Positions 1,405-28,953 of a DNA stretch of 64,000 bases are shown here, piece by piece. Below the pieces are notes generated by a model. That model did not search any database, was not told the origin of the DNA, and saw nothing but the letters and a program-made list of their open reading frames with translations. The DNA lies in contig JAAUZY010000059.1 in the NCBI GenBank assembly GCA_014804355.1, forward strand, positions 1 to 64,000, given 5' to 3'. The translations under genes and the position numbers were made by a program. The DNA is from Lachnospiraceae bacterium (GTDB lineage Bacteria; Bacillota; Clostridia; Lachnospirales; Lachnospiraceae). Positions within the stretch are counted from its first letter, which is position 1. Each line of letters starts with the position of its first letter.

Positions 1405-1486
1405 AACAGTGTGAAATGCTGTACGCTTCTTGAATTTGCAATGAAAAAATGGTATGATAAAACCACAAAAAAGAAAGGGTTAATAT

Positions 1487-2404: not shown

Positions 2405-2582
2405 ACAGCAGATTAGAAAATCTTATATTATGGCTATGAGACAGGGAAATAACTGATGATTCAGATTTGTTTCTCTGTTTTTTTATGTCATTTTGACAGT
2501 AACTTGTGGATATGGCAGCGTCAATAAGTCCGTATCCTTGTACAGCGTCAGGGCAATTACAGAAAAAGAAAGGATTAAAAAT

Positions 2583-2858: not shown

Positions 2859-4500
2859 TTTCGCAGCATTACAACAGCTTCACAACAGCAGCTTACGGGT
2901 TGCCATATATTGCAGGCTTTCAAAGGACGATAACCTTGACGGGGAGAGCGCAAGCATACAGAACCAGCGGGATATGCTGGAAACATGGTGTCAGGAGCGC
3001 AGGCTTACGGTGGTCGGGGTGTACGCTGATGACGGGTATTCCGGCTTGTACATGGACAGACCTGATTTTCAGAGAATGTTATCTGACTGCAAACAGGGTA
3101 AAATTGACGTGGTAGTGACAAAGGATATGTCAAGGCTTACCCGTAACAGCACACATTCGGGGCAGTTAAGGGACGAATTTTTCCCAAAGCACCATATCCG
3201 CTACATAGGCGTGACGGACGGCGTTGATACGGGGAAAGATGATGACCTTATCGCATTCCGCAGCGTTTTCAACGAGATTTACGCAAAAGACATCGGAAAA
3301 AAGGTTCATTCTTCGTATGTCATCAAGGCGAAAAAGGGCAAGTTTACCGGATGCGTTGCACCGTTCGGGTACATGAAGTCACCGGAAGATAAAAATTTCC
3401 TGATACCGGACAAAGACACCGCTTGGATTGTGCAGAAGATATTCGGATGGGCAGCCGAAGGGCATGGCACGAACTGGATCAGGCGCAGGCTTGAGGATGA
3501 AAAAATCCCCGCACCATGCTGGTGGAACAGGAAGAAAGGCTTGCGCAACCATGTGACCAAATGGGAAAAGGAGTACGGGGAAAAGGGTATCTATATGTGG
3601 GACTTTTCCACAATCAAGCAGATATTAGCCAATCCCGTCTATATCGGCACAATAGCGTCACAGAAAGCAAACTACCGTTTCAAGGTCGGCTGGCTTGGCG
3701 ATAAGAAGCCGGAAGAATGGATACAGGTAGAGAACGTGCATGAGCCGCTTGTGGATATGGACACTTACAATCTTGTGCAGGAAAAGGTAAAGATGCGTAA
3801 AAGACCTGACGCATGGGGCAATTACGGGATATTTGCAGGACTTGTCAAATGCGGGGAATGTGGAAGTACCATGAACCAGCGTGTGGCAAATGCAAAAGCA
3901 AAGACAAGAATACTGACCTGTGCAAAGTATAACCGTTATGGAGTGGCGCATTGCAGCCAGCACAGATTAGAACTTGACACTCTGTATCAGATTGTATTGG
4001 AGCAGATACGCACCTGTGCGGCACTTGCCCTTGCAGACGAAGCAAAGGTCATGGAGGAACTCCGTAAAAGCTGCCAGTGTGACAGTGAGGAAGAACACAG
4101 GCGCATAAAAGAGAACCTTTCAGAGAGTGAGAGCAGGCTTTCAGAACTGGATGCGCTTGTTTCAAAACTCTATGAGGACTGGATAGCGGGCAGGATCAAC
4201 GAAACAAACTTTACCCGTATGATGGAAAAGGCACAGGGCGAACAGGAAGCCTTGCAGAAAAAGGCGGACATGATGCGTGAACGTCTTGACGGAGTGGCAA
4301 AAGAACAGGAGGACAATTCAAAATGGCTGTCACTGATAAGGCAGTATGCCGACATTAAGGAACTTGACAGGGAAATGCTTCATCTGCTCATTAAAGAGAT
4401 TGTCGTCCATGAGGATATGTCAGAGGGCAGACGGAACACAACGGTAGAGATACATTTTAATTTTATGAAACAGGGAAGCCAGCTAACAGTAAAAAGTTAG
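2845..4500 (+). CDS. Large serine recombinase
   Basis: This 551-residue site-specific recombinase integrates or excises a mobile element. Residues 15-165 form the resolvase/invertase catalytic domain: the nucleophilic serine lies in YCRLSKDD, followed by SIQNQRDML, DDGYSG and the arginine-rich VTKDMSRLTRN. A recombinase DNA-binding domain follows, then a zinc ribbon (CGECGS...CAKYNRYGVAHC) and a long C-terminal coiled coil. This is the TnpX/Tn4451-like layout. The track start at 2791 is less likely than ATG 2845, which has GGAGGA six bases upstream. It lies at the probable right edge of the element, next to ilvE, and all catalytic residues look intact. Confidence 0.92.
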   Translation: MMDSNFAALQQLHNSSLRVAIYCRLSKDDNLDGESASIQNQRDMLETWCQERRLTVVGVYADDGYSGLYMDRPDFQRMLSDCKQGKIDVVVTKDMSRLTRNSTHSGQLRDEFFPKHHIRYIGVTDGVDTGKDDDLIAFRSVFNEIYAKDIGKKVHSSYVIKAKKGKFTGCVAPFGYMKSPEDKNFLIPDKDTAWIVQKIFGWAAEGHGTNWIRRRLEDEKIPAPCWWNRKKGLRNHVTKWEKEYGEKGIYMWDFSTIKQILANPVYIGTIASQKANYRFKVGWLGDKKPEEWIQVENVHEPLVDMDTYNLVQEKVKMRKRPDAWGNYGIFAGLVKCGECGSTMNQRVANAKAKTRILTCAKYNRYGVAHCSQHRLELDTLYQIVLEQIRTCAALALADEAKVMEELRKSCQCDSEEEHRRIKENLSESESRLSELDALVSKLYEDWIAGRINETNFTRMMEKAQGEQEALQKKADMMRERLDGVAKEQEDNSKWLSLIRQYADIKELDREMLHLLIKEIVVHEDMSEGRRNTTVEIHFNFMKQGSQLTVKS

Positions 4501-4509
4501 GGTGACGCT

Positions 4510-4550
4510 TCTGAAAACCGCATACAGGGGAATGGTGTTTATCCCCTGTG
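4510..4550 (+). terminator. Stem-loop after the recombinase
   Basis: An ACAGGGGA / TCCCCTGT stem closes over a loop of about ten bases just after the recombinase stop. No clear U-tract follows, so it may be a weak terminator or part of the element end rather than an efficient terminator. Confidence 0.35.
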
Positions 4551-4643
4551 GCGGAGAAATATTTACAAAACACAATCAAATCTTGAAGCTTCACAATCAA
4601 TTCGATTATTTTTCAACTATTTAGGTATGACACAATTCGTGTC

Positions 4644-4669
4644 TTGACTTTTGGGGATAAAGGTATAAT
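4644..4669 (+). promoter_or_regulatory. Probable ilvE promoter
   Basis: A TTGACT box and a perfect TATAAT box precede ilvE, but their spacing is only 14 bp; shifting the -35 to GTCTTG gives 17 bp. Just upstream lies the short palindrome GACAC-AATTC-GTGTC (about 4629-4643), a possible operator or recombinase crossover site. I looked for a T-box (AGGGTGGNACCGCG) and did not find one. Confidence 0.4.
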
Positions 4670-4748
4670 ATAGTAAAGGAAAATATAGGTCATACGGCGT
4701 GAGAGAACGGATATCACAATGCACTGCGAGGCAGAAGGAGTAAGGAAA

Positions 4749-5774
4749 ATGGAAAAGAAGAATATTGACTGGGCAAACCTCGGATTCGGTTATCAGGAGA
4801 CGGACAAGAGATTTGTAGCTAATTATAAGAATGGCGCATGGGATGAGGGAGCACTTATCTCTGATGCTAATATTTCCATCAATGAGTGTGCGGGTGTACT
4901 ACAGTATGCACAGACATGCTTTGAGGGAATGAAGGCATATACGACGGAGGACGGCCGTATCGTGACTTTTCGTCCGGATCTGAATGCACAGCGTATGGAA
5001 GACAGTTGTAAGAGGTTGGAGATGCCGGTATTTCCTAAGGAGCGTTTCGTGCAGGCGGTGGTTGATACGGTAGCGGCCAACGAGGCATATGTTCCGCCCT
5101 ACGGTTCTGGCGCGACTCTTTATATCCGTCCGTATATGTTCGGCAGTTCTTCTGTGATCGGTGTAAAACCGGCGGAAGAATATCAGTTCAGAGTATTCAC
5201 GACACCGGTGGGACCTTACTTCAAAGGCGGTGTGAAACCGTTAACGATCAAAGTGAGTGACTTCGACCGCGCGGCGCCGCATGGCACGGGACATATCAAG
5301 GCAGGTTTAAATTATGCCATGAGTCTGCATGCTATCATGACGGCACATGCAGAGGGGTACGATGAGAATATGTATCTCGATGCGGCGACAAGAACCTATG
5401 TGGAGGAGACAGGCGGCGCTAACTTCCTGTTCGTGACGAAGGACAATAAGGTCGTAACGCCGAAATCTAACAGTATTCTGCCTTCCATTACGAGACGTTC
5501 GCTGATGGTGGTTGCAAAAGATTATCTCGGATTGGAAGTGGAGGAGAGAGCGGTTCCTTTTGAGGAAGTGAAGGAATTCGCGGAATGCGGTCTGTGCGGT
5601 ACTGCGGCAGTGATCTCTCCGGTAGGTAAGATCGTAGATCATGGCAAAGAGATCGCATTACCCAGCGGTATGAGCGAGATGGGACCGATTACGAAGAAGC
5701 TGTATGATACACTGACAGGCATACAGATGGGACGCATTGAGGCGCCTGAAGGATGGATTCGTGTGATCAAATAA
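4749..5774 (+). CDS. ilvE: Branched-chain amino acid aminotransferase
   Basis: This 341-residue fold-type IV PLP enzyme transfers the amino group between glutamate and the keto acids of Leu, Ile and Val, in the cytoplasm. Family markers are GVLQYAQTCFEGMKAY near the start, the arginine-bearing region LYIRPYMFGS, GHIKAGLNY around the PLP-binding lysine, and the EETGGANFLFV loop, followed by SILPSITRRS. The length fits the bacterial BCAT subgroup of about 340-360 residues. The track's ATG at 4719 is rejected in favour of ATG 4749, which follows GAAGGAGTAAGG. It stands alone with its own promoter and a strong terminator. Confidence 0.92.
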   Translation: MEKKNIDWANLGFGYQETDKRFVANYKNGAWDEGALISDANISINECAGVLQYAQTCFEGMKAYTTEDGRIVTFRPDLNAQRMEDSCKRLEMPVFPKERFVQAVVDTVAANEAYVPPYGSGATLYIRPYMFGSSSVIGVKPAEEYQFRVFTTPVGPYFKGGVKPLTIKVSDFDRAAPHGTGHIKAGLNYAMSLHAIMTAHAEGYDENMYLDAATRTYVEETGGANFLFVTKDNKVVTPKSNSILPSITRRSLMVVAKDYLGLEVEERAVPFEEVKEFAECGLCGTAAVISPVGKIVDHGKEIALPSGMSEMGPITKKLYDTLTGIQMGRIEAPEGWIRVIK

Positions 5775-5799
5775 TAGAAATAGAAGATACGAGGGGAGA

Positions 5800-5843
5800 G
5801 GGATTAGGTTGAGATGCTTTCGGCACGCAATTTAATCCCTTTT
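5800..5843 (+). terminator. Terminator after ilvE
   Basis: GGGATTA pairs with TAATCCC, with inner TTG/CAA and TGC/GCA pairs and a short TTTCG loop, then TTTTC. It separates ilvE from the PHP gene. Confidence 0.75.
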
Positions 5844-5887
5844 CAGCGGAATAGGTTTTGCGATAAAACAGAAGGCAGGACGGGAAA

Positions 5888-6643
5888 ATGAATACGGATA
5901 TACGACAAAGTTACCCCTATTTATATGAGACACATCTGCATACGTCGGAAGCCAGCGCCTGTGCAAGAAGTACGGGTGAAGAGATGGCAAGAGCCTGTAA
6001 GGAGTACGGTTATACCGGCATCTTCGTGACGGATCATAACTGGGGAGGCAATACTGCCATAAATAGAGGACTTCCGTGGGAAGAATGGGTGGAGGCTTTC
6101 GGGCGGGGGTATGAACACGCCAGAGCGGAGGGAGACCGGATCGGTCTGGATGTTTTCTTCGGCTATGAGGCGGGATACTGCGGTACTGAATTTCTCATAT
6201 ACGGTATAGATACGGCGTGGATGAAAGCGCATCCCCAGCTGCCGGAGGCGGGCGTGGAGGAACAGTACAGGCTTGTGCATGAGGCCGGAGGGCTCGTGGT
6301 GCATGCCCATCCTTACAGAGAGGCAGATTATATTCGCGAGGTTCGCCTGTATCCCGAGTGGGTGGACGGAGTGGAAGGAGTCAATGCGGCGCATTCTAAT
6401 TCCCATAGTAAGGGGCATGCCCATCCGGAGTATGATGCGAGGGCAATAGCCTATGCCTGTGCGAATAAGCTGCCCATGAGTGCGGGATCAGATATTCATA
6501 ACACACAGCTGTTCGGCGGCGGCGTTGCTTTCCGGAGAAGACTGGCATCGGCAGAAGATTATATTAAAGCGATCCTTACCGGGGAAGACTATGTACTGAC
6601 CGACGGAGAGAAGTGGTATGACCGGCAGGGCAATATTATATGA
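5888..6643 (+). CDS. PHP-domain phosphoesterase
   Basis: This 251-residue member of the polymerase and histidinol phosphatase superfamily is a metal-dependent phosphoesterase. Metal ligands are visible in order: YETHLHTSEAS (HxH), FVTDHNWGG, FFGYEAGY, VHAHPYREAD and SAGSDIHN. The substrate is unknown; related stand-alone proteins act on small phosphorylated compounds or short nucleotides. ATG 5888 follows GGACGGGAA. It has no membrane segment. It is a single gene between ilvE's terminator and a repeat element, so the context gives no pathway. Confidence 0.82.
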   Translation: MNTDIRQSYPYLYETHLHTSEASACARSTGEEMARACKEYGYTGIFVTDHNWGGNTAINRGLPWEEWVEAFGRGYEHARAEGDRIGLDVFFGYEAGYCGTEFLIYGIDTAWMKAHPQLPEAGVEEQYRLVHEAGGLVVHAHPYREADYIREVRLYPEWVDGVEGVNAAHSNSHSKGHAHPEYDARAIAYACANKLPMSAGSDIHNTQLFGGGVAFRRRLASAEDYIKAILTGEDYVLTDGEKWYDRQGNII

Positions 6644-6739
6644 TGAGCAGTGTGGTTCGGTTGTATGGAAGAAATAATACCCGGACGGATATGCAATGCG
6701 AGACGGATATGAAATATGTGACAATATAGAAAGAATAGA

Positions 6740-6871
6740 GTAACTATTCAGTACAACGCGAAGCATTTACTGCTGAGACCGTAAGAATATGATTCGACGG
6801 GCAAAATCCCATTGTCGAAGACAATTTAGGATGGATTTTGCATCGTAACTGTGAAGGTACTGAACAGTTAC
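6740..6871. repeat. Palindromic repeat element, about 132 bp
   Basis: The ends GTAACTATTCAGTAC and GTACTGAACAGTTAC are inverted repeats with one mismatch. Inside are two more hairpins: CAAAATCC/GGATTTTG enclosing ATTGTC-GAA-GACAAT, and at the right end GTAACTGT/ACAGTTAC. I have an impression that TAACTGTTCAGTAC-ended elements recur in Lachnospiraceae genomes, but cannot verify that here. It explains the spurious TTG start at 6838 of the next ORF. Confidence 0.65.
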
Positions 6872-6885
6872 AGAATAGGAAATGT

Positions 6886-7953
6886 ATGAGAGGAAGCAGA
6901 TTAAGAAGACCGGCAGGACTCCTGCTGGCAGCAGGTATATGTCTGAGCGCCTTAAGCGGGTGTGGTGACAGCGAAGGGGTCGGCACCAAGGTAGTTCTGA
7001 CTACCGGATTTAATAAGGATGAGATTTTCCGGATAGAGACGAGTGCCTGTACACTGCCGGAGATCATGGTATATCTCACGAATATCCAGAATCGCTACGA
7101 GAGTGTATATGGTACGGAAATCTGGAATACCAATGTGGATGGTGTGACGTTGGAGCAGAATGTGAAGGATATTGCACTGGCGCAGATCGCACAGATCAAA
7201 ACCATGAATCTGATGGCCGGGCGGTATGAGGTAGAGCTAAGTGATGAGGAAAAGGCGCAAGCGGAGAATGCGGCGAACGCTTATTACAGTTCCCTTAACA
7301 GTACCGAGATAGAGCTGATGGACGTGTCGGAGAAGACGATCAGCGAATTGTACAGAGAATTTGCGCTGGCGGAGAAGGTGTATCAATACACGATCAAGGA
7401 TATTAATCCGGAGATCAGTGATGATGAGGCGCGAACCATCACGGTACAGCATATTCTCATTAAGACTTATGCGCTGGACGGCACGGGGAAAAAGATAGAG
7501 TATACGGTGCAGGCGAAGCAAAATGCTTATCGCGAGGCGTGCGAAGTGCTGGAACTGGCAAAGGAAGGGGAAGACTTTGACGAGCTGATCCGCAAGTACA
7601 GCGAAGACGATAAGGGAACCTATTCCTTCGGCAAAGGAGAGATGGGAGAGACATTCGAGACGGCGGCTTTTAATCTGGGTAAGGATGAGATCAGCGATAT
7701 CGTGGAGACAGAGTTTGGCTATCATATCATCAAGTGTCTCAATACTTTTGATAAGGATGAGACGGATGCCAATAAGGTCAAGATCGTGGATCAGAGACGG
7801 GCGGAGGCGTTCGGTCAGGAGTATGATGCTTATGTGGAGACACTGACCAGAAATCTGAATGAAGAGTTGTGGGACAGTGTAGGGTTTATTCACGATGAGA
7901 ATGTTAAGACGATGGATTTTTTTGAGGTGTATTCGCAGTATTTCGGAAAATAG
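6886..7953 (+). CDS. Parvulin-type peptidylprolyl isomerase lipoprotein (PrsA-like)
   Basis: This is an exported foldase: cis-trans isomerisation of prolyl bonds in secreted proteins on the outer membrane face. From ATG 6886 it has a basic start, a hydrophobic helix and a lipobox LSALSGC, so it should be lipid-anchored. A SurA/PrsA-like N-terminal helical region is followed at about residues 180-290 by a parvulin domain: VQHILIKT, SEDDKGTYSFGKGEMGETFETAAF and TEFGYHIIKCL. The track start (TTG 6838) falls inside a palindromic repeat and would bury the signal peptide, so it is rejected. It has about 355 residues, somewhat larger than Bacillus PrsA. It is probably monocistronic, ending before the CIRCE region. 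Confidence 0.85.
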   Translation: MRGSRLRRPAGLLLAAGICLSALSGCGDSEGVGTKVVLTTGFNKDEIFRIETSACTLPEIMVYLTNIQNRYESVYGTEIWNTNVDGVTLEQNVKDIALAQIAQIKTMNLMAGRYEVELSDEEKAQAENAANAYYSSLNSTEIELMDVSEKTISELYREFALAEKVYQYTIKDINPEISDDEARTITVQHILIKTYALDGTGKKIEYTVQAKQNAYREACEVLELAKEGEDFDELIRKYSEDDKGTYSFGKGEMGETFETAAFNLGKDEISDIVETEFGYHIIKCLNTFDKDETDANKVKIVDQRRAEAFGQEYDAYVETLTRNLNEELWDSVGFIHDENVKTMDFFEVYSQYFGK

Positions 7954-8017
7954 TATAAGTTTAGAAAAAGTTTAGAATTACCGGAAACCGCATTATAGCT
8001 GAATAAAACGACAATTA

Positions 8018-8044
8018 TTAGCACTCGTTACGAATGAGTGCTAA
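8018..8044 (+). promoter_or_regulatory. CIRCE element (HrcA operator)
   Basis: TTAGCACTC-N9-GAGTGCTAA is an exact match to the CIRCE consensus bound by the heat-shock repressor HrcA. Six T residues follow, so on RNA it could also act as the terminator of the upstream prsA-like gene. It lies 144 bases before htpG and upstream of the best promoter match. Confidence 0.93.
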
Positions 8045-8051
8045 TTTTTTC

Positions 8052-8080
8052 TTGACTTCTGAATATGGTCGTATTAAACT
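8052..8080 (+). promoter_or_regulatory. Probable htpG promoter
   Basis: TTGACT and TAAACT are separated by 17 bp directly downstream of CIRCE. The operator being just upstream of the -35 box, rather than between -10 and start, is a little unusual but compatible with HrcA repression. Confidence 0.55.
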
Positions 8081-8188
8081 ATGCACTAGGTGATAAATTC
8101 CGAGTGAAGGGATTTGCGTAATTACAAGGCAGCATGAAAGCAGAGACTTGTTTTGGTTGTACGATTATGAAGAAAGGGATGTGATAAA

Positions 8189-10300
8189 ATGGCAGCAAAA
8201 CATGGTAATTTATCAATCAACAGCGACAATATTTTCCCGATTATCAAGAAATGGTTATATTCAGATCATGATATCTTTTTCCGTGAACTGATATCCAACG
8301 GATGTGATGCGATCACGAAGTTAAAGAAACTGGATATGATGGGCGAGTATGCGCTGGCAGACGACTATAAGGCAAAAATACAGGTGATCGTAAACCCTGA
8401 GGAAAAGACCCTGAAATTTATAGATAACGGTATCGGTATGACGGCGGCCGAGGTGGAGGAGTATATCAACCAGATCGCTTTTTCCGGTGCAACGGACTTT
8501 ATCGAGAAGTATAAGGACAAGGCAAATGAGGATCAGATTATCGGTCATTTCGGTTTGGGATTCTACTCAGCGTTCATGGTGGCGGACGAGGTACACATCG
8601 ACTCGCTGTCTTATCAGGAAGGCGCGCAGGCGGTTCATTGGGAGTGCGATGGCGGCACGGAGTTCGACATGGAGGAAGGAACGAGAACCGAGGTCGGCAC
8701 GGAGATTACGCTTCATATCAACGAGGATTGCTTAGAGTTCTGTAACGAGTATAAGGCGAAAGAAGTGATTAAGAAGTACTGTTCCTTCATGCCGACGGAG
8801 ATCTATCTGTCCAAGGCGAATACTACGGAGACACAGATCATCAAGGTAGACGAGAAACTGGATACGGATGAGGTCGTAGAGGAGATTGCAAAAGAAAAAG
8901 AAGAGGACGAGCAGAAGTTAAAGATTAAGAAGCGTCCCGAACTGCTCAATGAGACACAGCCCCTTTGGACGAAGCATCCGAACGAGTGCACCAGAGAGGA
9001 GTATCTGGAGTTTTATCGCAAGGTATTTCAGGATTACAAGGAGCCGCTGTTCTGGATTCATTTGAATATGGATTATCCTTTTAATATGAAGGGTATTCTC
9101 TATTTCCCGAAGATCAATATGGAGTACGAGTCCATAGAGGGAACGATCAAATTATATAACAATCAGGTGTTTATCGCAGATAATATTAAGGAGGTTATTC
9201 CTGAGTTCCTGCTTTTGTTGAAAGGTGTGATCGACTGTCCGGATCTGCCGCTTAACGTATCCAGAAGCGCACTGCAGAATGACGGTTTCGTAAAGAAGAT
9301 CAGCGAGTATATCACGAAGAAAGTGGCGGATAAGCTGTCCGGCATGTGCAAGACCGAGAAAGAGGAGTACGAGAAATATTGGGATGATATCAGTCCCTTC
9401 ATCAAGTTCGGATGCCTGAAAGACGATAAATTCTGTGAGAAGATGACAGATTATATTCTCTTCAAGAACCTGGACGGTGTCTATATGACGCTGCCGGAGT
9501 GTCTCGAGGTCAATAAGATCGATCCGGACGAAGTCGGAGAGGAAAGCGAGACGGCTGCGGACGGTGATAAGGCGGAGACAGAAAACAGCAATGCCGTGGA
9601 CGAAAACGGTGAAAAAGTGGAAGCCGAGGTGGTAGATGAGAGCGAAGAATCTGCCGCAGAGGATGAGGAAACCGAGGAAGAGAAGAAAGAGAAAGTCATT
9701 TACTATGTAACCGACGAGAAGCAGCAGAGCCAGTATATCAATATGTTTAAGGCTGCCAAGATGGATGCTGTGGTATTGACACACAATATCGACCAGCCCT
9801 TTGTGTCCCAGCTGGAGGCTAAGAATGAGGGCATCAAGTTCCAGAGAATTGATGCGGATCTGACGGATGTATTTAAGGCGAAGACTTCCAAGAAGGCTGA
9901 GAAAGAGATGGAAGAGCAGGCGGAAGAAATCGCTAAGCTGATGAAGAAGGTTCTGAAAAAGGATGCCATCAAGATCAAGATCGAGAAACTGAAAAACAAG
10001 AAGATTTCATCCATGATCACATTGTCTGAGGAAAGCCGCAGAATGCAGGATATGATGAAGATGTATTCCATGCAGGGGATGGACATGGGCATGTTCGGCA
10101 AGGAAGGCGAGACGCTGATCCTTAATGCGAATCATCCGTTGGTGCAGTATGTCTTAGAACATCAGGACGGCGAGAATGTGAAGATGATCTGCGAGCAGCT
10201 CTATGATCTGGCGCTGTTGCAGCAGGCACCGCTTGAACCCGAGGCAATGACAAAGTTCGTGGCAAGAAGTAATGATATTATGATGTTGTTGACAAAATAA
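8189..10300 (+). CDS. htpG: Hsp90-family chaperone HtpG
   Basis: This cytoplasmic ATP-driven Hsp90 chaperone has an N-terminal GHKL ATPase: FFRELISNGCDA carrying the catalytic Glu and Mg-binding Asn, DNGIGM, GHFGLGFYSAFMV. The middle domain includes LYFPKIN and DLPLNVSRSALQ, and the C-terminal dimerisation domain ends with the hydrophobic LNANHPLVQ region. At 703 residues it is about 80 longer than the E. coli protein; the excess is a strongly acidic Glu/Asp linker at about residues 448-500, between the middle and C-terminal domains. ATG follows AAAGGGATGTG. A CIRCE site upstream predicts HrcA control, unlike B. subtilis htpG, which is HrcA independent. Confidence 0.97.
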   Translation: MAAKHGNLSINSDNIFPIIKKWLYSDHDIFFRELISNGCDAITKLKKLDMMGEYALADDYKAKIQVIVNPEEKTLKFIDNGIGMTAAEVEEYINQIAFSGATDFIEKYKDKANEDQIIGHFGLGFYSAFMVADEVHIDSLSYQEGAQAVHWECDGGTEFDMEEGTRTEVGTEITLHINEDCLEFCNEYKAKEVIKKYCSFMPTEIYLSKANTTETQIIKVDEKLDTDEVVEEIAKEKEEDEQKLKIKKRPELLNETQPLWTKHPNECTREEYLEFYRKVFQDYKEPLFWIHLNMDYPFNMKGILYFPKINMEYESIEGTIKLYNNQVFIADNIKEVIPEFLLLLKGVIDCPDLPLNVSRSALQNDGFVKKISEYITKKVADKLSGMCKTEKEEYEKYWDDISPFIKFGCLKDDKFCEKMTDYILFKNLDGVYMTLPECLEVNKIDPDEVGEESETAADGDKAETENSNAVDENGEKVEAEVVDESEESAAEDEETEEEKKEKVIYYVTDEKQQSQYINMFKAAKMDAVVLTHNIDQPFVSQLEAKNEGIKFQRIDADLTDVFKAKTSKKAEKEMEEQAEEIAKLMKKVLKKDAIKIKIEKLKNKKISSMITLSEESRRMQDMMKMYSMQGMDMGMFGKEGETLILNANHPLVQYVLEHQDGENVKMICEQLYDLALLQQAPLEPEAMTKFVARSNDIMMLLTK

Positions 10301-10320
10301 GTTATGTAAACCATTGAAAT

Positions 10321-10360
10321 AAGGGGAAAAGGCAGTTTGACGGCTGTCTTTTCCCCTTAT
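10321..10360. terminator. Bidirectional terminator between htpG and minus-strand gene
   Basis: A long stem AAGGGGAAAAGGCAG / CTGTCTTTTCCCCTT lies between the convergent genes and has T-rich sequence on its 3' side; A-rich sequence on the other side lets it serve the opposite strand. Confidence 0.8.
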
Positions 10361-10381
10361 TAAGATGAAAGTCATAATACA

Positions 10382-11647
10382 TTAACCCGGCTCCGCGATC
10401 CTGCTCACGCCCACATAGATCTCCGAAATCTTATACCATGTGGGATAATCCACGATACCGGTCTGAGGCAGATTAAAGACCCGCTGGAAGGTGCGGACCG
10501 CATTGGCTGTATTAGTACCATAGATACCGTCCGCCGTGATACGCGGAATAGCGGGATAGTTCTGAGCAATACGATTGAGCTGTTGCTGGATCTGCAGTAC
10601 TTTGTCGCCGGAAGCGCCTACGTTCAAATTATATCCGGGCCATGAAGAAGGTACGCCTGAGACGGCCACAGCGGTGTTGATATACATGTCGCTTCCGTAG
10701 TAGTAGCGGATGATCTCGATGGGTGTGTAGCCTTCGTCTCCCAGATACTTAGAGCCCCACTGGCTCAAGCCGCTGCATGTCACATTTTTGCCGTCGCAGT
10801 AAGAGGTGAAAATGGGCTGGCGCACGCCGGGGCGGGAGAGATAATTGGCGAAGATGGAATCCACCAGTCTGTCAATGTTGGAGTATATATTCCTGCCATA
10901 AATCCATTTCTGATCGTAGGCAGTGGAGGATGTGATGGTGAAGTTGTAGCCTTTGTTACGATACCACTCCGTATAAACCCTGTTCAGTGTAAAGGACATG
11001 ATGGCAAGGGTGTTGGCATAGATCGCACTTTCGGGCCAGGTGGCATATATCTCGGATGAAACCACATTTTTAATATAATCCCGGTAACGTACATAATAGT
11101 TGGCCGCAGTGGAGTCGGAAGGAACGCCGTCATGAACGATAATATATTCGGGAATGACAACGCGGCTTAAGACGATCTCGCCAGATTCATCCATGGGCTT
11201 GATTTCGTCTTCGGGAATCTTAGGCGGGTAGTCCCCGTACAGTGTGTGGTCGGGTATGGTGATCGTCTCGGAGTCTTCCTGCGCAATTTCGGTGGGAGTC
11301 ATCTCGATATTCTGCACCGCTGTCACATCGGGAAGCACTTCCACGCCGGACACGGTTACCGGTTCATAGCCCGGAGCGGTAATGTTCAGCGTATATTCGG
11401 CGTAAGGCATAGGTGAATTGGGCGTCAGGCTGTATTCAAGCGGCGGTGCGTCTAACGATATGGTATCTGTCTGACCGGAGGAATCCGTAGTCAGTGTTTC
11501 CAGTGTACTGTTCGGCTCTCCGGTATAAGAAATGGTTATGTTGGCATTCCGGATCGGTATCAGTCCCACATCGGCAGTAACGTTGATTTGCAGACTGCCC
11601 CGTGCCGTACCTTCGGACTGCATGCTTTTTAAGATGGGCTCTTCCAT
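10382..11647 (-). CDS. SpoIID-like and peptidoglycan-binding domain protein, leaderless
   Basis: This 421-residue protein has no signal peptide at its start (MEEPILKSMQSEG). Residues 17-110 form a carboxypeptidase-regulatory-like beta domain. Residues about 185-320 (DYIKNVVSSEIYATWPESAI...AIMSFTLNRVY...CSGLSQWG) match the SpoIID/LytB pattern in which a transglycosylase-like fold acts on sporulation or septal peptidoglycan. A PG_binding_1 repeat follows (VLQIQQQLNRIAQNYPAIP, ADGIYGTNTANAVRTFQ). ATG 11647 is preceded by GAGG. A longer paralogue lies at 28954-30795. A wall-binding protein lacking an export signal suggests a mother-cell-made spore coat or cortex role, or a non-classical route; that is inference. 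Confidence 0.75.
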   Translation of the reverse strand: MEEPILKSMQSEGTARGSLQINVTADVGLIPIRNANITISYTGEPNSTLETLTTDSSGQTDTISLDAPPLEYSLTPNSPMPYAEYTLNITAPGYEPVTVSGVEVLPDVTAVQNIEMTPTEIAQEDSETITIPDHTLYGDYPPKIPEDEIKPMDESGEIVLSRVVIPEYIIVHDGVPSDSTAANYYVRYRDYIKNVVSSEIYATWPESAIYANTLAIMSFTLNRVYTEWYRNKGYNFTITSSTAYDQKWIYGRNIYSNIDRLVDSIFANYLSRPGVRQPIFTSYCDGKNVTCSGLSQWGSKYLGDEGYTPIEIIRYYYGSDMYINTAVAVSGVPSSWPGYNLNVGASGDKVLQIQQQLNRIAQNYPAIPRITADGIYGTNTANAVRTFQRVFNLPQTGIVDYPTWYKISEIYVGVSRIAEPG

Positions 11648-11739
11648 ATAAAACCTCGTAATAGTCTCTTCCTAATATGGTATGCGGCAGGAAATAAAAG
11701 GTACTGGTTGCGATGGCCGCAAATAAAATGCGCCCACCC

Positions 11740-11769
11740 TTGCGCTGACTGCTATATAAATGGTATAAT
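11740..11769 (+). promoter_or_regulatory. Promoter of the DUF5717 cluster
   Basis: TTGCGC and a perfect TATAAT separated by 18 bp lie 34 bases before the GTG start of the DUF5717 gene, in the divergent spacer with the minus-strand SpoIID-like gene. Confidence 0.55.
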
Positions 11770-11802
11770 TTTAATAACTATGTAGAAAGGCAGTGCGGAA
11801 GC

Positions 11803-14800
11803 GTGAGACAGGTAATAGAAGAGATACTAAACGGAAAATTCAATTTTGATAACGGTTCTCTGGACTTTTCCTGTCCTCGTATTGAGATATCACTGCATGC
11901 CGACGAAACGGCGGAAGGTTCCTTTACGGTGTACGGTCCGGTGGGGCGTATGACAGAAGGTTATGCGGTATCTTCTGATCTGCGCATGGAGTGTGTGACG
12001 CAGTCCTTCAGCGGCAGTCAGGATGAGATTCACTATCGGTTTGACGCTCACGGGATGGAAGAGGGAGAAGAAGTGAAGGGAGCCTTCAACATCATTTCTA
12101 ATCAGGGAGAATATTATCTGCCTTTTTCCGTGTCTGTTATGCCCAGAGTGGTTGTCTCCAGTATGGGCAATATCAGAAATCTGTTCCATTTTACCAATCT
12201 GGCGAAAAGCAATTGGGAAGAAGCGGTGAAACTGTTTTATTCCGAAGAATTTAAGGAAGTGTTCACGGGCAGTGACAGCCAGCATTATGCAGCATACATG
12301 GGCTTATCGGCAGTTCGTGGGAATGAGCATAATGTGGAGGAGTTCCTGCAGGAGATCAACAAAAAGAGAGCCGTGGAATATATTCCAGAGGAGACGGAGA
12401 TCAAGATAGAGGATCCGCTGGAGAATACCCGATATGCACTCGTAATCAACAGAAACGGTTGGGGCTATACTTATCTGCAGATCGGGACAGAGGGAGAATT
12501 CCTGCGGGTGGAAGAGAGCACCGTGACGGATTCCTCTTTTCTGGGCAACATATACAGGGTGTATTATTATATTGATTATGAGAAACTGCATGCAGGCAAT
12601 AACTATGGCTGCATTTTGTTAATACAGGAACACAGGACGATCAGAGTTCCGGTTACTGTGGTACTGCACCGGATCGGAAGGAAAGCACTGGGAATCCATC
12701 GGGAAAAGAGACGGCTTACCGTGGAGGTCATGGAATATTATCAGGCATTCCGATTAAAGAAGATCAGCACGAAAACATGGATGGCGGAGACGGGAAAGCT
12801 TCTTAGCCGTCTAACGGAGCTGGACGACAGGGATATTACGATCAAACTTTTTCAGGCGCAGATTCTGTTGACGGAGGAGCGTAGCAATGAAGCGAAGTGG
12901 ATGATCGAAAAGCAGGAGGATCAGGTGCTTGCAAGACGGGAAGAGTTTCCGGAGTTGTGGTGTTATTATCTGTATCTCACGACCCTGTACAGCAAGGATG
13001 ATCAGTATGTGGACGATGTGGCAGCGGAAGTGGCGGAGGTCTACGAGCGCAACAGGGGGAACTGGCGGATCGCATGGCTGCTTCTTTATTTGTCTGAGGA
13101 ATATGTGACGAGTGCATTCCGCAAATGGGAACTGTTGGAAGAATTGTTTCGGAACCGCTGTACTTCTCCGGTTATCTATATTGAAGCGTGGAATCTGCTG
13201 CGTGCGAATCCGTCCATGCTCCTGAAACTGGAGGAGTTTGAGCAGCAGGTATTGTACTATGCTGTCAGACATGATCTCATGAAGGACGAGATCGAGATGC
13301 AGATCATATATCTGGCGCAGAAACAGAAGACATATTCAGACGGTGTCTTTCGTATTCTTAAGGGATGTTATGAGAAGAAGCAGAACAATGACATTCTCCA
13401 TGCGATCTGTACACTCTTGATCAAGGGCAATCGCTACGGGGAAGCATATTTTGAGTGGTATCGTGCCGGGGTAGAGCAGAATCTCAGGATCACCAGATTG
13501 TATGAATATTATATGATGTCTATATCGCTTACATACGATGGTCCGCTGCCCAAGATCGTGCTGATGTATTTTGCGTATCAGAGCGATCTTCAATATGAGA
13601 TCACGGCGTATCTGTATGCCTATGTTCACCGGCACAGAGAGGAAATACCGGATATTTATGTGAATTATGCTGCCGCCATGGAGCGCTTCGTGACAGAGCA
13701 GCTGGGAAGAGGAAGAATTAATAAGGATCTTGCATATCTGTATCGCAATATGATCAGTCTGCCAATGATCGATGAAGAGAGTGCGGGGCAGCTTGCCACT
13801 TTACTTTTTATGAGGAATATCAAGATAGATTCGGATAAGATCAGGGAAGTGATTCTGGTGTATCCGTACGGAGTGAGCGAGGAGGTATATCCCGTGGTTT
13901 CGGGCACTGCACAGGTTCCGGTGTACGATTCCGACTGTAAGATCCTTCTGGGGGACGGGACAGGCAACAGGTACACGGTGAGTGTGGAATATCAGGCGGA
14001 CAGGCTGATCAGCCCGGCGAAACTGGCGCTTATGATCGCTCCGTTTGTGCGGGATCATTTGGGATATGCAGTCTATGCATGTTTCGAGTATCAGAATACG
14101 TTCACTGTACAGGAGGACAATGCAGATCTCTTTGCGCGGCTTGTCGATTCCGACCGGATCAAGGAGAGCATGAAGCGCGAGATCCGCAGGATGCTGGTGC
14201 AGTTCTATTATGATAAAGACCGCATGAGGGAATTGGACGAGTATCTGACGCTTCTTACACCGGAAGATGTCAACAGACATGACCGTAAGGAGATCATCCG
14301 CTATATGATCACGAGAGGGATGTATGAGGAAGCCTATCGATGGGTGCGGCGTTACGGACCGTACGGCGTGGAGGCCAAGACACTGGTAAAGCTGTGCAGC
14401 CGGCTGCTGGATGAGGAGCAGACGCAGGAAGATCCGGTGATGACCGGAGTGCTCCTGTATGTGGTGAAAAAGGGAAAATATGATGAGAATGTAATGAATT
14501 ATCTGCTGCGGTATTTCTCCGGAAGTATCAAGGATATGAGGGATGTGTGGAAGGCAGCGGTGGATTTCGGGCTGGACACTTATATGTTGTGCGAGCGGAT
14601 GCTTGTTCAGATGTTGTACACCGGGGCACATGTGGGAGAGAAGATGGAAATCTTCCGTACCTACAGTAAGGGTGGCGGCAATGAGGAACTGATGGCGGCA
14701 TTTCTGTCTCAATGCTGCTATGACTATGCCATCGGAGAACAGATTACGGAACCGTATATCTTCAGGAATGTGCTGCAGCTATATCAGGACGGCGTGCCTT

Positions 14801-15366
14801 TGCATCTGGTGTGCAAGATCGCCTGCCTGCGATATTATGCGGAGAATAAGGACGAGCAGGACGAGGTAGTGCGGCAGATATGCTGTGATTTCCTGCGGGA
14901 GCTTGTGGATGAGCATATTGTACTGCCGCTTTATAAAGAATATCAGGGGTATATCCCGCAGATGGATGCGTATCAGGATAAGACAATGGTGGAATATCGG
15001 GCCAAAGCCGGCAGCAGGGCTGTGATCCATTACGTGATCCAGAGTGAGAACAGCGCGGAGAATGAGTATCGCAAGGAAGAGATGAAAAATATGTTTGCAG
15101 GCATCTGCGTTAAGGAATTCATTCTTTTCTTTGGTGAGAGACTGCAGTTCTACATCACTGAGGAAATGGACGGTAACGAGCAGCTGACTAAGAGCGGCAC
15201 GATCAATAAGAGCGATATCGGACAGGATAATTTCGAGAGCCGGTTTACTGTACTCAATGACATTATGATCGGCAAGACACTGCATGATTACGATACGGTA
15301 GATGACCTGCTTAGGGAATACTACAGACAGGATTATATGACAGATGCAGTATTTTGCATACGCTGA
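11803..15366 (+). CDS. DUF5717 family giant protein
   Basis: This 1187-residue protein is recognised as the DUF5717 family, whose function is unknown. Residues 1-115 form a beta-sandwich-like domain (EGSFTVYGP, FNIISNQGEYYLPFSV), and a second, related-looking beta region covers about 205-290. From about 300 to 1000 it is almost wholly alpha helical with repeated helix pairs rich in Tyr, Leu and Arg, as in TPR-like solenoids. A C-terminal region from about 1050 mixes strands and helices (FILFFGERLQFYITEE). There is no signal peptide or membrane segment, so it should be cytoplasmic. It starts with GTG; the ribosome site (AAAGG) is distant, so the start is a little uncertain. It leads a four-gene cluster with an Hsp70-fold partner 55 bases downstream, suggesting a large scaffold. 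Confidence 0.8.
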   Translation: MRQVIEEILNGKFNFDNGSLDFSCPRIEISLHADETAEGSFTVYGPVGRMTEGYAVSSDLRMECVTQSFSGSQDEIHYRFDAHGMEEGEEVKGAFNIISNQGEYYLPFSVSVMPRVVVSSMGNIRNLFHFTNLAKSNWEEAVKLFYSEEFKEVFTGSDSQHYAAYMGLSAVRGNEHNVEEFLQEINKKRAVEYIPEETEIKIEDPLENTRYALVINRNGWGYTYLQIGTEGEFLRVEESTVTDSSFLGNIYRVYYYIDYEKLHAGNNYGCILLIQEHRTIRVPVTVVLHRIGRKALGIHREKRRLTVEVMEYYQAFRLKKISTKTWMAETGKLLSRLTELDDRDITIKLFQAQILLTEERSNEAKWMIEKQEDQVLARREEFPELWCYYLYLTTLYSKDDQYVDDVAAEVAEVYERNRGNWRIAWLLLYLSEEYVTSAFRKWELLEELFRNRCTSPVIYIEAWNLLRANPSMLLKLEEFEQQVLYYAVRHDLMKDEIEMQIIYLAQKQKTYSDGVFRILKGCYEKKQNNDILHAICTLLIKGNRYGEAYFEWYRAGVEQNLRITRLYEYYMMSISLTYDGPLPKIVLMYFAYQSDLQYEITAYLYAYVHRHREEIPDIYVNYAAAMERFVTEQLGRGRINKDLAYLYRNMISLPMIDEESAGQLATLLFMRNIKIDSDKIREVILVYPYGVSEEVYPVVSGTAQVPVYDSDCKILLGDGTGNRYTVSVEYQADRLISPAKLALMIAPFVRDHLGYAVYACFEYQNTFTVQEDNADLFARLVDSDRIKESMKREIRRMLVQFYYDKDRMRELDEYLTLLTPEDVNRHDRKEIIRYMITRGMYEEAYRWVRRYGPYGVEAKTLVKLCSRLLDEEQTQEDPVMTGVLLYVVKKGKYDENVMNYLLRYFSGSIKDMRDVWKAAVDFGLDTYMLCERMLVQMLYTGAHVGEKMEIFRTYSKGGGNEELMAAFLSQCCYDYAIGEQITEPYIFRNVLQLYQDGVPLHLVCKIACLRYYAENKDEQDEVVRQICCDFLRELVDEHIVLPLYKEYQGYIPQMDAYQDKTMVEYRAKAGSRAVIHYVIQSENSAENEYRKEEMKNMFAGICVKEFILFFGERLQFYITEEMDGNEQLTKSGTINKSDIGQDNFESRFTVLNDIMIGKTLHDYDTVDDLLREYYRQDYMTDAVFCIR

Positions 15367-15421: not shown

Positions 15422-16732
15422 ATGTTTTTAGAGCGGAAAGAGGAAGGCAAACTGCATAAGGGAAGTGTACTGGTGGGCTATGATCTGGGGGAGAAATATT
15501 CTCAGATCAGCTATTGCGTCTACGGTCAGGAGGAAGCCACCACGATCGCAACGGTTGTGGGAACGAAGCAGTATAATATACCGACGATGTTATGTAAACG
15601 AGAGGGAGTCAATCAGTGGTTCTATGGCAAGGATGCCGTGAAGAATATGGATGAGGAGGGAATGTTTCCGTTAGAAGGGCTTCTCGGTCTTGCCAGAAAA
15701 GGCGATGAAATTGAATTGGATGGAGAGACCTATGATCCGGTGGCGCTTCTCACACTATTCCTGAAGCGCAGCATGACGCTGATGAATTTTATTGCGACTG
15801 TGGAGAAGATTGATGCGATCATGTTTACTGTGGATGAGTTGGATGATAGAATGGTGGAGATCCTGTCTCAGGCATCAGTGAATCTGGGCTTGAGGACACC
15901 GCACATTTATTTCCAGAGCCACACGGAGAGCTTCTATGCTTTTATGCTGCATCAGCCGCCCGAATTATGGAATTATCAGGCGATGGCGTGTGAACATGAC
16001 GGTGTGCGTCTCAAGATCTACCGCATGGAATGCAATAAACGTACGACGCCGATTGTAGTTCTGATCGAGGAACAGATATATGAGACACTGGTCATTCCGG
16101 AGGAGACGGAAGAGGAAGCGGTCAGGGATGATGCCTATCGCATGGCGGATGAACGGTTTCTCGGTATCCTGGGTAAAATGTGCGAGGGAAGGATCATATC
16201 TTCCGTATATCTCCTCGGAGACGGGTTTCGGGCAGAGTGGGATAAACAATCCATACAATTTCTGTGCCATAATAGGAGAGTTTTTCGCGGAAATAACCTT
16301 TTTAGTAGAGGCGCATGCTATGGATTGCAGGAAAAACTGGAGCCGGGAGAGGTGGGAAGCAGGCATGTGTTCTTAGGAAAGGACAAACTAAAATCCAATA
16401 TCGGCATGAATGTTCTGCGACAGGGCAGAGAATCTTACTATGCGCTTCTGGATGCAGGGGAGAACTGGTATGAGGTGCAAAAAGAGTGTGAGTTTCTGCT
16501 GGAGGGAGAGAGAGAACTGGAACTTGTGGTTACTCCGCTGACCGGCAAGGATATAGAGACGAGGATAATACCGTTAAACGGAGGGAATAAAGGCGCTCCT
16601 TATACAAGATACCGTATGGAAATGGCAATGAGCGCTCCGGAGACGGTACAGATCAAGGTGACCGACATGGGGTTCGGAGAACTCTTCCCGACAAGCGGGC
16701 AAGTGTGGGAGGAATCTTTCAACGTAGTTTAG
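15422..16732 (+). CDS. DUF5716 family protein with degenerate Hsp70/actin fold
   Basis: This 436-residue protein is always, as far as I recall, the partner of DUF5717. It keeps the Hsp70 outline. The phosphate-1-like strand VLVGYDLGEKYSQIS comes first, then NIPTMLCKR like the conserved TPS loop. VDAIMFTVDELDD through QSHTESFYAFML is equivalent to the VPAYF...NEPTAAALAY segment, and SVYLLGDGF...RRVFRGNNLFSRGACYG is equivalent to the adenosine motif. The phosphate-2 DLGGGT motif is replaced by CEHDGVRLKIYRM, so ATP hydrolysis is doubtful. A beta-rich C-terminal region (from about 325) could be a substrate- or partner-binding domain. ATG 15422 has TAGGAG nine bases upstream. The Hsp70 relation is my reading of motif order. 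Confidence 0.78.
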   Translation: MFLERKEEGKLHKGSVLVGYDLGEKYSQISYCVYGQEEATTIATVVGTKQYNIPTMLCKREGVNQWFYGKDAVKNMDEEGMFPLEGLLGLARKGDEIELDGETYDPVALLTLFLKRSMTLMNFIATVEKIDAIMFTVDELDDRMVEILSQASVNLGLRTPHIYFQSHTESFYAFMLHQPPELWNYQAMACEHDGVRLKIYRMECNKRTTPIVVLIEEQIYETLVIPEETEEEAVRDDAYRMADERFLGILGKMCEGRIISSVYLLGDGFRAEWDKQSIQFLCHNRRVFRGNNLFSRGACYGLQEKLEPGEVGSRHVFLGKDKLKSNIGMNVLRQGRESYYALLDAGENWYEVQKECEFLLEGERELELVVTPLTGKDIETRIIPLNGGNKGAPYTRYRMEMAMSAPETVQIKVTDMGFGELFPTSGQVWEESFNVV

Positions 16733-16783: not shown

Positions 16784-17641
16784 ATGGAATACGGTATGGG
16801 TCGGATAATTCTTGGGACGGGTGTATACAGCGACAGCCCCTACTTTATGGAAAAGTTTTATGTAAACCTATATTCGGTGGAGGAATTGTGTTATCTGTTT
16901 GTGGAGAAAGCGGAATTGCTGGATCGGGATGTGATGCGGCGGGATCTGATACAATGGCTGGATGAGCAGTGCGGATTAAGCCAGCTGGCACACACACTTT
17001 ACTCCCTGATGAATCAAAATGGTTCTGTCTCTGCTTTTGCGGGAACAATATTGGAGTATGTAGGTCTGTATCCGGCTGTGGTGATAGAGCAGACGGAGCA
17101 GACGATCAGGAGCAATGAGGGGTTAAATCCTTACGAGCGTGGGAAAGCTAAGGCAGATCACATGCTGCAGAGCAGAAAATTTTTTATGGCGCTCAGACAA
17201 TATCACAGTCTGCTCGCACAGATTCCGGAGACCGACAGAAAGTTGAGAGGCAGCATCTATCACAATATGGGAGTGGCATGTGCTAAGATGTTCATGTTCC
17301 GGCAGGCGGAGGAGTGGTTCCGGCAGGCATATGAAGCTGATCGGGATTCGGAAAGTCTGGAGTCATATCTTGCTGCCATCCGTATGCGATGTGAGGATAA
17401 GGAGTATATTACTTATATTGCGGAACATCCGGAATACCACGACGCATCCTTACGGGTAGAGAGGAAGATGGAGCGGGCTTCGGGGCAGTTTGAAGGAACA
17501 GATGAAAACCGAATGCTTTTTACCCTGCAGGTATTTAAAGAAGAAGGAAGCAGTACGGCAGGCAGCGAGGTGCAATATTATCAGGAGATCGAGAGGCTGA
17601 CGGCCGGGTTGAAAGAACAATACAGAGAATATGTGTTATAG
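16784..17641 (+). CDS. TPR-like helical protein of the DUF5717 cluster
   Basis: This 285-residue protein is predicted to be cytoplasmic and mostly helical. Residues about 120-200 contain TPR-like helix pairs (AKADHMLQSRKFFMALRQYHSLL, IYHNMGVACAKMFMFRQAEEWFRQAYEAD). The N-terminal 100 residues resemble no domain I can name. It starts 51 bases after the DUF5716 stop, with GGAG only three bases before ATG 16784; ATG 16796 is an alternative start. The gene ends 21 bases before the next start, so the cluster is almost certainly one transcript. An adaptor role bridging the DUF5717/DUF5716 pair and the membrane protein is inference. Confidence 0.72.
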   Translation: MEYGMGRIILGTGVYSDSPYFMEKFYVNLYSVEELCYLFVEKAELLDRDVMRRDLIQWLDEQCGLSQLAHTLYSLMNQNGSVSAFAGTILEYVGLYPAVVIEQTEQTIRSNEGLNPYERGKAKADHMLQSRKFFMALRQYHSLLAQIPETDRKLRGSIYHNMGVACAKMFMFRQAEEWFRQAYEADRDSESLESYLAAIRMRCEDKEYITYIAEHPEYHDASLRVERKMERASGQFEGTDENRMLFTLQVFKEEGSSTAGSEVQYYQEIERLTAGLKEQYREYVL

Positions 17642-17662
17642 CGCGCAGAAATGAGGATTAAA

Positions 17663-18847
17663 ATGGGTTGGCTTAAGAAACTGATTGCGGGATTTCGCAG
17701 AAGAGATGAAGAAGATTTATATGACGAGGAGTGGGACGATGAGGAAGTCGTCCATCAGGTGGATTATAACAATAGGGAACAGCGAAACGATTACGTCAGA
17801 AACTGTCTGGAACGTATGGCAGATGCCACGAGGGAACTGGAAAATCTGACTTTTGAGTACGATATGGTAACTTCCTATCTGAAAGATATGGAGGAGATCG
17901 AGGCGCTTCCGCCGGAGGAGAGCGAACAGCTTAAGGAGTGTGCGAAACGGGTATCACAGCTGCAGGACAGTAAGGCTGATTTCATGGAGCGGCCGCACAG
18001 GATCAGCGATGAGAAATATCAGCAGATCGAGCGGATGCTCGATGAGGTGGATGAAGGATATGCGAAGCTGACGGAAGCGGAGGAATATCAGGATCGGATC
18101 AAACAGGATCTGAACCGGCTGGATGGTGAGAAGCATGCTTATCTGTACCGTAAGAATGAGGTGATGCGGCTGATTGCTGATACCAGAGGCATGGCGATTA
18201 TATGCGTGGTTGCGCTTGGACTGTGCATCCTGCTCCTGCTTTTCCTGCAGTTTTTCTTAGATATGGACACGAAGGCAGGATATCTTGTGACGGCAGCCGC
18301 GGCGGCGTTTGCGATCACGGTGATCTATGTCAAGCATGTGGATGCCAGAAAAGAGTTGCATCGTGTGGAGACCGGAATCAATAAGATCATACTTTTGCAG
18401 AATAAGGTGAAGATCAGGTATGTCAACAACACCAATCTGTTGGATTATCTGTATTTGAAATACGGCGTTTCCAGTGCGAAGGAACTGATAGATCTATGGG
18501 AAAATTATAAGATTGAACGGGAAGAACGGGAGAAATTCCGTAAGGCGGAACTGGACTTAGACTATAACGAGCAGGAACTGTTACAAATGTTAAAGAGGTA
18601 TCAAATCAAAGATCCGGCCGTGTGGCTGCACCAGACAGAGGCCATATTGGATCACAAGGAAATGGTGGAGATCCGCCACAACCTGATCATCCGTAGACAG
18701 TCGCTGCGCCGGCGGATGGATTATAATAAAGAGGTGGTAGCGGGCGGTTCGCAGAAGGAGATCAAAGATCTGGTGGAGAAATATCCGCAGTATGCCAAGG
18801 AGATCATGGCTTCTGTGGAAGAATACGAGAAAAAGTTTGCAAAATAA
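17663..18847 (+). CDS. Coiled-coil protein with two membrane helices
   Basis: This 394-residue protein is the last gene of the DUF5717 cluster. A basic start (MGWLKKLIAGFRRR) is followed by a very acidic patch, then a coiled coil (about 40-170), two adjacent hydrophobic helices (AIICVVALGLCILLLLFLQFF and GYLVTAAAAAFAITVIYV, about 180-225) and a second long coiled coil. Both coiled coils should face the same side, probably the cytoplasm, forming a membrane-anchored hairpin. The track start at 17651 is replaced by ATG 17663 because GAGG lies inside the first codons with ideal spacing. I recognise no named family. It could be the membrane anchor of the cluster. Confidence 0.75.
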   Translation: MGWLKKLIAGFRRRDEEDLYDEEWDDEEVVHQVDYNNREQRNDYVRNCLERMADATRELENLTFEYDMVTSYLKDMEEIEALPPEESEQLKECAKRVSQLQDSKADFMERPHRISDEKYQQIERMLDEVDEGYAKLTEAEEYQDRIKQDLNRLDGEKHAYLYRKNEVMRLIADTRGMAIICVVALGLCILLLLFLQFFLDMDTKAGYLVTAAAAAFAITVIYVKHVDARKELHRVETGINKIILLQNKVKIRYVNNTNLLDYLYLKYGVSSAKELIDLWENYKIEREEREKFRKAELDLDYNEQELLQMLKRYQIKDPAVWLHQTEAILDHKEMVEIRHNLIIRRQSLRRRMDYNKEVVAGGSQKEIKDLVEKYPQYAKEIMASVEEYEKKFAK

Positions 18848-28838: not shown

Positions 28839-28953
28839 TATATTATGTCTGGGAGAATATCGGAAATAAAAAAGTGTAACTGATAGCCGGATTTCTCATA
28901 TTTTATAACATATTGGTTTATCGAATAATATAGGTATGAAGGAGAATGAAATT

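Follow-up and report, generated by a model that had tools for sequence, protein, structure and literature searches.

A catalytically dismantled Hsp70, DUF5716, in Lachnospiraceae and its origin in a four-Hsp70 operon

What is an Hsp70 good for without ATP? The question is raised by a gene of the DUF5716 family in a stretch of 64,000 nucleotides from a Lachnospiraceae bacterium (the window; Table 1), and DUF5716 together with a four-Hsp70 operon of sister families makes it testable. The window protein matches Pfam DUF5716_C (PF18980) over residues 132-434 (E 1e-99; 333.6 bits versus a cut-off of 34.7). Neither Pfam nor NCBIfam provided a functional name for it, NCBIfam had no match for either DUF5716 or its neighbour DUF5717, and a literature search retrieved no relevant paper on DUF5716 (one irrelevant hit) and none on DUF5717. 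The original prediction, made from the sequence, described the protein as Hsp70-like in motif order with the phosphate-2 motif lost, and proposed a pseudo-ATPase or nucleotide-sensing scaffold.

Table 1. Positions of the DUF5716 gene, its sequence features and its neighbours in the window
Feature	Positions	Strand	Description and evidence
Likely mobile-element remains at the window start	844-4500		IstB/DnaC-like ATPase fragment, Rpn/PD-(D/E)XK-like nuclease, large serine recombinase
htpG (Hsp90)	8189-10300		Just upstream of the DUF5717-DUF5716 operon
SpoIID-like protein	10382-11647	-	Peptidoglycan-binding domain; similar to the protein at 28936-30795
DUF5717, operon partner	11803-15366	+	1187 aa; tandem Ig-like domains and long TPR-like solenoid; PF18984/PF18983, AlphaFold, Foldseek
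DUF5716, catalytically dismantled Hsp70	15422-16732	+	436 aa, ATG start; nucleotide-domain remnant and beta substrate-domain remnant; ORF list, PF18980, AlphaFold/Foldseek, hhalign to HspC, tree
Phosphate-1 remnant GYDLGEKYSQIS, residues 19-30	15476-15511	+	D21 kept in 91/95; the two Hsp70 threonines replaced
SHTESFYAFML, residues 166-176	15917-15949	+	In place of EPTAAALAY; E171 equivalent is H in 78/95, Y in 9, R in 8
CEHDGVRLKIYRM, residues 190-202	15989-16027	+	In place of phosphate 2, DLGGGTFD; Thr position is Thr in only 7/95
Short linker, residues 222-242	16085-16147	+	Where Hsp70 has subdomain IIB
Adenosine-loop remnant VYLLGDGFRAEW, residues 262-273	16205-16240	+	G266 in 95/95, G268 in 93/95, W273 in 93/95
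NNLFSRGACYG, residues 291-301	16292-16324	+	GA motif of the Hsp70 nucleotide domain; G297 and A298 in 95/95
C-terminal all-beta domain, residues 325-434	16394-16723	+	Aligns with Hsp70 beta substrate-binding domain; no alpha lid after it; AlphaFold secondary structure, hhalign to HspC
TPR protein, operon partner	16784-17641	+	285 aa; counterpart follows HspD in the four-Hsp70 operon
Coiled-coil protein with two-helix membrane hairpin (~residues 171-230)	17651-18847	+	398 aa; hydropathy
SpoIID-like protein	28936-30795	+	Peptidoglycan-binding domain; similar to the protein at 10382-11647

Fold and homology

The AlphaFold model of the protein, built from 62 relatives whose sequences all come from one family, reached a pLDDT of 87.5 and a pTM of 0.82. 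A Foldseek search of this model against the PDB gave 578 matches at E<=0.001; the best 50 of these were Hsp70s or chains from Hsp70-containing complexes rather than any unrelated fold, and the best solved structural match was DnaK (E 4.7e-20). According to model and matches, an actin-fold nucleotide domain of the Hsp70 type is present with subdomain IIB missing. The predicted actin/Hsp70 fold thus stood and could be narrowed down to Hsp70 specifically, with a nucleotide domain and a beta substrate domain, rather than a generic actin fold of the FtsA/MreB kind.

Profile comparisons pointed in the same direction. In hhalign, DUF5716 matched HspC, an intact Hsp70 paralogue encoded in the four-Hsp70 operon described below, with 98.4% probability over 418 columns (E 5e-15), the alignment of the beta domain reaching residue 428, and it matched DnaK-type Hsp70s with 91.9% over the first half (E 7e-7). 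An unrelated control profile gave 0.2% probability, and the correspondence of motifs is therefore not due to chance. In Pfam, the bridging protein HspB of the same operon matched both DUF5716_C (E 2e-33) and HSP70 (E 2e-14), and HspC matched DUF5716_C at E 1e-12. DUF5716 shares descent and fold with Hsp70 (PF00012), and a domain of unknown function is now a defined structural class. Searches of PDB sequences with the single DUF5716 sequence and with its profile gave no significant match, which would explain why the family stayed unnamed.

Motifs lost and motifs kept

Alignment with the intact paralogues placed the stretches quoted in the original prediction on Hsp70 motifs in the predicted order. 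DLGEKYSQIS aligned on phosphate 1, IDAIMFTVDELDD on the strand-helix VITVPAYFND, SHTESFYAFML on the E171 motif, CEHDGVRLKIYRM on phosphate 2, LLGDGF on the adenosine loop and NNLFSRGACYG on the GA motif. The protein contains every quoted motif, with one misquotation: the stretch given as VDAIMFTVDELDD actually reads IDAIMFTVDELDD. The loss of phosphate 2 was likewise borne out, and the damage proved to be wider than described.

In a site table of 95 DUF5716 proteins, the K70 equivalent was mostly L, V, I, Y or F and the D201 equivalent mostly Lys. At the phosphate-2 Asp position E was found in 49 and D in 43 of the 95, and the glycines of this motif were lost. Between the landmarks flanking IIB there were 26-45 residues in Lachnospiraceae DUF5716 compared to 108-146 in intact Hsp70s, and the protein ends after the beta domain, with no alpha lid. 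The phosphate-1 signature D-x-G-T-T, K70, E171, the phosphate-2 signature D-x-G-G-G-T, and IIB with the lid were all missing as features of a functional Hsp70 ATPase, and the nucleotide site is incomplete. The K70 residue of DnaK makes contact with the gamma-phosphate, and tilting of IIB by GrpE opens the cleft (PMC8215388). Judging from these replacements, DUF5716 would no longer be able to run the ATP cycle and would have no ATPase activity. Because K70, E171, the phosphate-1 threonines, IIB and the lid are also gone, the nucleotide-sensing part of the original prediction became less likely than the scaffold part, which we retain.

Other positions are under tight constraint. Near-invariant residues include G19, D21, P54, W66, G69, A72, E169, Q178, D243, G266, G268, W273, C282, F288, G297, A298, W349, D415, G417 and G419, and R285 is counted with W66, Q178, D243 and C282 among those that are new in DUF5716. 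W66, W273, E169, F269 and W349 are common to HspC or HspB and not to DnaK. Of the nucleotide site, D21 and the adenosine-loop glycines are all that has been kept, and their near-invariance may mean that a nucleotide or another ligand is still bound.

Operon context

DUF5716 sits in a tight same-strand run of four genes encoding DUF5717, DUF5716, a TPR protein and a coiled-coil membrane protein. With 98% identity to its nearest named relatives, the window falls in a Lachnospiraceae genome. We counted the conservation of this arrangement across 80 named relatives, taking as denominators the loci with enough sequence. DUF5717 adjoined DUF5716 in 71/71 loci with enough upstream sequence, and the TPR protein and the coiled-coil protein accompanied it in 77/79 and 76/77 loci, respectively, with median intergenic gaps of 15-25 bases. 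Within one bacterial family such a kept neighbourhood is partly inherited synteny.

In the AlphaFold model of DUF5717 (pLDDT 86, pTM 0.58), Ig-like domains are followed by a long helical solenoid, which a beta insert separates from a second solenoid, and then by a C-terminal beta domain. Foldseek matched it to Ig-like modules and to TPR solenoids, among them Ski3, Ctr9 and Naa15 (E ~1e-5 to 1e-4), a profile that identifies DUF5717 as a predicted scaffold. The coiled-coil protein, with its two predicted membrane helices, is probably the membrane anchor of a DUF5716 complex.

The Hsp90 gene htpG, which precedes the operon in the window, was found just upstream in 34/62 loci of the named relatives with enough sequence, and was missing nearby in the more distant loci L045-L047. 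Its nearness therefore looks like local synteny; a functional link to DUF5716 was considered and left as weak. A SpoIID-like protein of the type encoded at the near side of DUF5717 in the window (minus strand) adjoins the operon in 61/80 relatives, in either orientation.

Distribution and selection

In a survey of 199 genera with one genome per genus, PF18980 was detected in 195/200 Lachnospiraceae genomes (162/165 of the good ones), almost always in single copy, so that nearly every genome of this dominant gut-bacterial family carries the gene. No PF18980 protein was found outside the order in ~390 genomes sampled from the phylum. The dN/dS versus close relatives was 0.05-0.06, of which only the order of magnitude counts since dS was saturated, and reading frames were open throughout. 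DUF5716 is thus under strong purifying selection, and its nearly universal, vertical occurrence speaks for a core role and not for a defence role.

A four-Hsp70 operon in sister families

Searching PF18980 in 295 genomes of the same order, we found the short DUF5716 form in Lachnospiraceae and hits of 500-590 aa, often two per genome, in the other families. These hits led to an operon with the order DUF5717-like protein, HspA, GrpE-ended protein, HspB, HspC, HspD, TPR protein and sometimes the coiled-coil protein. HspA and HspC are intact Hsp70s, as is HspD, which carries a vWA domain behind its Hsp70 part; HspB is degenerate. Pfam identified HSP70 on A, C and D, GrpE (7e-11), vWA on D, and DUF5717 on the first gene. 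Many of the full-operon genomes are fragmentary or metagenome assemblies. In those at loci L031 and L038-L050, the GrpE domain ends a protein of 565-645 aa whose N-terminal part matched no assigned domain, and the C-terminal vWA domain of HspD stands in the place of the lid. At L051-L057 (family f22) the PF18980 hits were HspC and HspD with no clear HspB, which is either absent or too diverged; flanks were short there.

One genome (G003, locus L032) is intermediate, with the whole four-Hsp70 operon and an HspB that is already of the DUF5716 type (151 bits to the window protein) and keeps a IIB stretch of 106 residues. DUF5717 and HspD are each split into two ORFs at this locus, either genuinely or through assembly errors. 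In a maximum-likelihood tree of 66 proteins each class formed one clade, DUF5716 and HspB were separated from HspC, HspA, HspD and DnaK at 100/100, and the L032 protein was the first branch of the DUF5716 clade. Relationships inside this clade are unsure, since some of its branches are long. HspB itself is already without K70 (hydrophobic in 16/16), the phosphate-2 Thr (lost in 16/16) and D201 (Arg in 16/16), and E171 is mostly lost, whereas 99-119 residues, a IIB-length stretch, remain between the landmarks. Catalysis was therefore lost before IIB.

HspC was not found in 100 Lachnospiraceae genomes at E<=1e-60, and the same query recovered it in 6/6 full-operon genomes at E<=1e-198. A class-wide search found no HspC outside the order, with at most 3 candidates scored per genome. 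A second GrpE, with a long N-terminal part fused to it, occurred in 4/4 full-operon genomes and in none of 6 sampled Lachnospiraceae members. Taken from these gene inventories, DUF5716 is the surviving inactive member of an ancestral four-Hsp70 operon, and Lachnospiraceae have lost the active Hsp70s and the extra GrpE and kept DUF5717, DUF5716, the TPR protein and the two-helix membrane protein. The loss of IIB in a family that also lacks the GrpE-like gene fits the action of GrpE on IIB; as both losses represent a single event on the tree, this proves nothing about cause.

The literature contained only DnaK duplication and general reviews, and no described multi-Hsp70 operon or bacterial pseudo-Hsp70; the operon is new, as far as these sources go. 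Possibly, although we would sooner bet against it than for it, the ancestral operon encoded an obligate hetero-Hsp70 machine on a TPR scaffold, reduced in Lachnospiraceae to an ATP-free complex with a family-wide core function. As read, this machine would have comprised three active Hsp70s (one vWA-ended), an inactive Hsp70 as an integral part and a GrpE-like subunit of its own. If so, only the inactive Hsp70 remains, with a core function performed without any chaperone ATPase.

Proposed role and alternative explanations

We consider it fairly probable that DUF5716, a dead Hsp70 that stems from the four-Hsp70 operon, serves as a non-catalytic subunit of a membrane-linked complex. A structural role is suggested by the combination of a dead Hsp70, strong constraint, and constant neighbours that comprise the DUF5717 solenoid, the TPR protein and the hairpin protein of the membrane. 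The ancestral operon encoded the DUF5717 solenoid scaffold, three active Hsp70s, a GrpE-like exchange factor, the inactive HspB and the TPR protein. In Lachnospiraceae the active Hsp70s and the GrpE-like partner were lost and IIB was cut out of DUF5716, with the other genes staying together. DUF5716 would act as a rigid subunit that its nucleotide-domain remnant keeps associated with DUF5717 and the TPR protein, and the two-helix coiled-coil protein would tether this complex to the membrane. The lid-less beta domain might provide a constitutive low-affinity face for peptide binding or docking. The beta domain of yeast Ssz1 binds a motif of Zuo1 (PMC7083937), and that of DUF5716 may likewise accommodate a peptide or a segment of a partner. 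Complex formation, tethering and peptide binding are what we infer. For the division assemblies with which the protein had been compared, nothing was found that links DUF5716 to cell division. The proposed history is a clear series in which an Hsp70 loses catalysis (HspB), then the subdomain on which GrpE acts, then its active partners, and selection stays strong.

Alternatively, DUF5716 might be a co-chaperone or regulator of the housekeeping DnaK or HtpG that replaced the lost active partners, for example by presenting substrates to DnaK. Lachnospiraceae keep DnaK, inactive HspB adjoins three active Hsp70s in the ancestral operon, htpG is often a neighbour, and Ssz1 hands substrates to the active Hsp70 Ssb (PMC7083937). 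The synteny argument given above for htpG weighs against such a role, as does the negative search for a J-domain protein in the ancestral operon, and we regard it as unlikely. A rather doubtful proposal is that DUF5716 binds nucleotide without hydrolysis, as Ssz1 binds ATP without hydrolysing it (PMC7083937), and that binding acts as a conformational switch for the complex, which would be the nucleotide-sensing scaffold of the original prediction. The retention of D21, G266, G268, G297 and A298 (Table 1) would agree with this. Against it, the retained glycines may be structural only, substitutions affect K70, E171, the two threonines of phosphate 1 and that of phosphate 2, and the nucleotide cleft lacks IIB as one of its walls.

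Two further explanations were rejected and deserve next to no credence. A decaying, functionless relic of the lost operon might be expected from the disappearance of catalytic machinery and partners, but it is refuted by constraint and retention, that is by the survey counts, dN/dS and open frames reported above and by the new near-invariant residues W66, Q178, D243, R285 and C282. Membership in another actin-fold family (FtsA, MreB or PilM type), with likeness to Hsp70 in motifs only, has in its favour that these families share the order of phosphate-1, phosphate-2 and adenosine motifs. None of them was the closest fold or profile match, however; the best structural matches are from Hsp70s and their complexes, the C-terminal domain aligns with the HspC substrate domain, HspB ties DUF5716 to PF00012 by sequence, and the tree sets it beside HspB.

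Comparison with known systems

The closest relative of DUF5716 is HspB of the sister families (PF18980 and PF00012), for which no published name was found. Both have the same operon place and are sister groups in the tree, both have E169, GF at 268-269, W273, W349 and FGE at 418-420, and HspB is likewise without K70 and the phosphate-2 threonine. In contrast to DUF5716, HspB keeps IIB and occurs together with intact Hsp70s and a GrpE-like protein. DnaK (PF00012) shares common descent and the fold of nucleotide domain and beta domain with DUF5716, which is without its ATPase residues, IIB and lid.

Among characterized proteins, Ssz1 of the yeast ribosome-associated complex, whose structures 6sr6 and 5mb9 were among the Foldseek matches, is also a non-canonical Hsp70 with nucleotide and beta domain, no lid and no catalytic site. 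It does not hydrolyse ATP and is part of a complex (PMC7083937). Unlike DUF5716, which is without IIB, Ssz1 retains ATP binding, is partnered by a J-protein and is located on the ribosome; Pfam detected no J domain in the operon proteins of L031 or of the window.

GAP1-N2 GTPase systems combine HSP70, GrpE and FN3/TPR proteins (Kaur et al. 2020, PMC7159879) and thus resemble the ancestral operon in their Hsp70, Hsp70-vWA (as HspD), GrpE and Ig-like/TPR proteins. Because of the resemblance of HspD to their Hsp70-vWA proteins, membership of the DUF5716 operon in a conflict system was considered. Pfam scanning of the operon proteins of the window and of L031 revealed no GAP1 or DO-GTPase genes, and these conflict systems are patchy whereas the DUF5716 operon is near-universal and vertically kept in Lachnospiraceae. 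The only Hsp70s of the window's own genome are DnaK and two of a separate GAP1-N2 system, and in the tree the latter fall with DnaK, away from HspA and HspD. Given no GTPase, the near-universal presence and the separate grouping of genuine GAP1-N2 Hsp70s, membership was rejected. The separate system of this genome (locus L147, C1:4000-23500, at ~1323-14250) is a complete GAP1-N2 GTPase system as in Kaur et al. 2020, encoding GAP1-N2/GAP1-M, two DO-GTPase2-like proteins, Hsp70-vWA, Hsp70, GrpE and an FN3-like protein.
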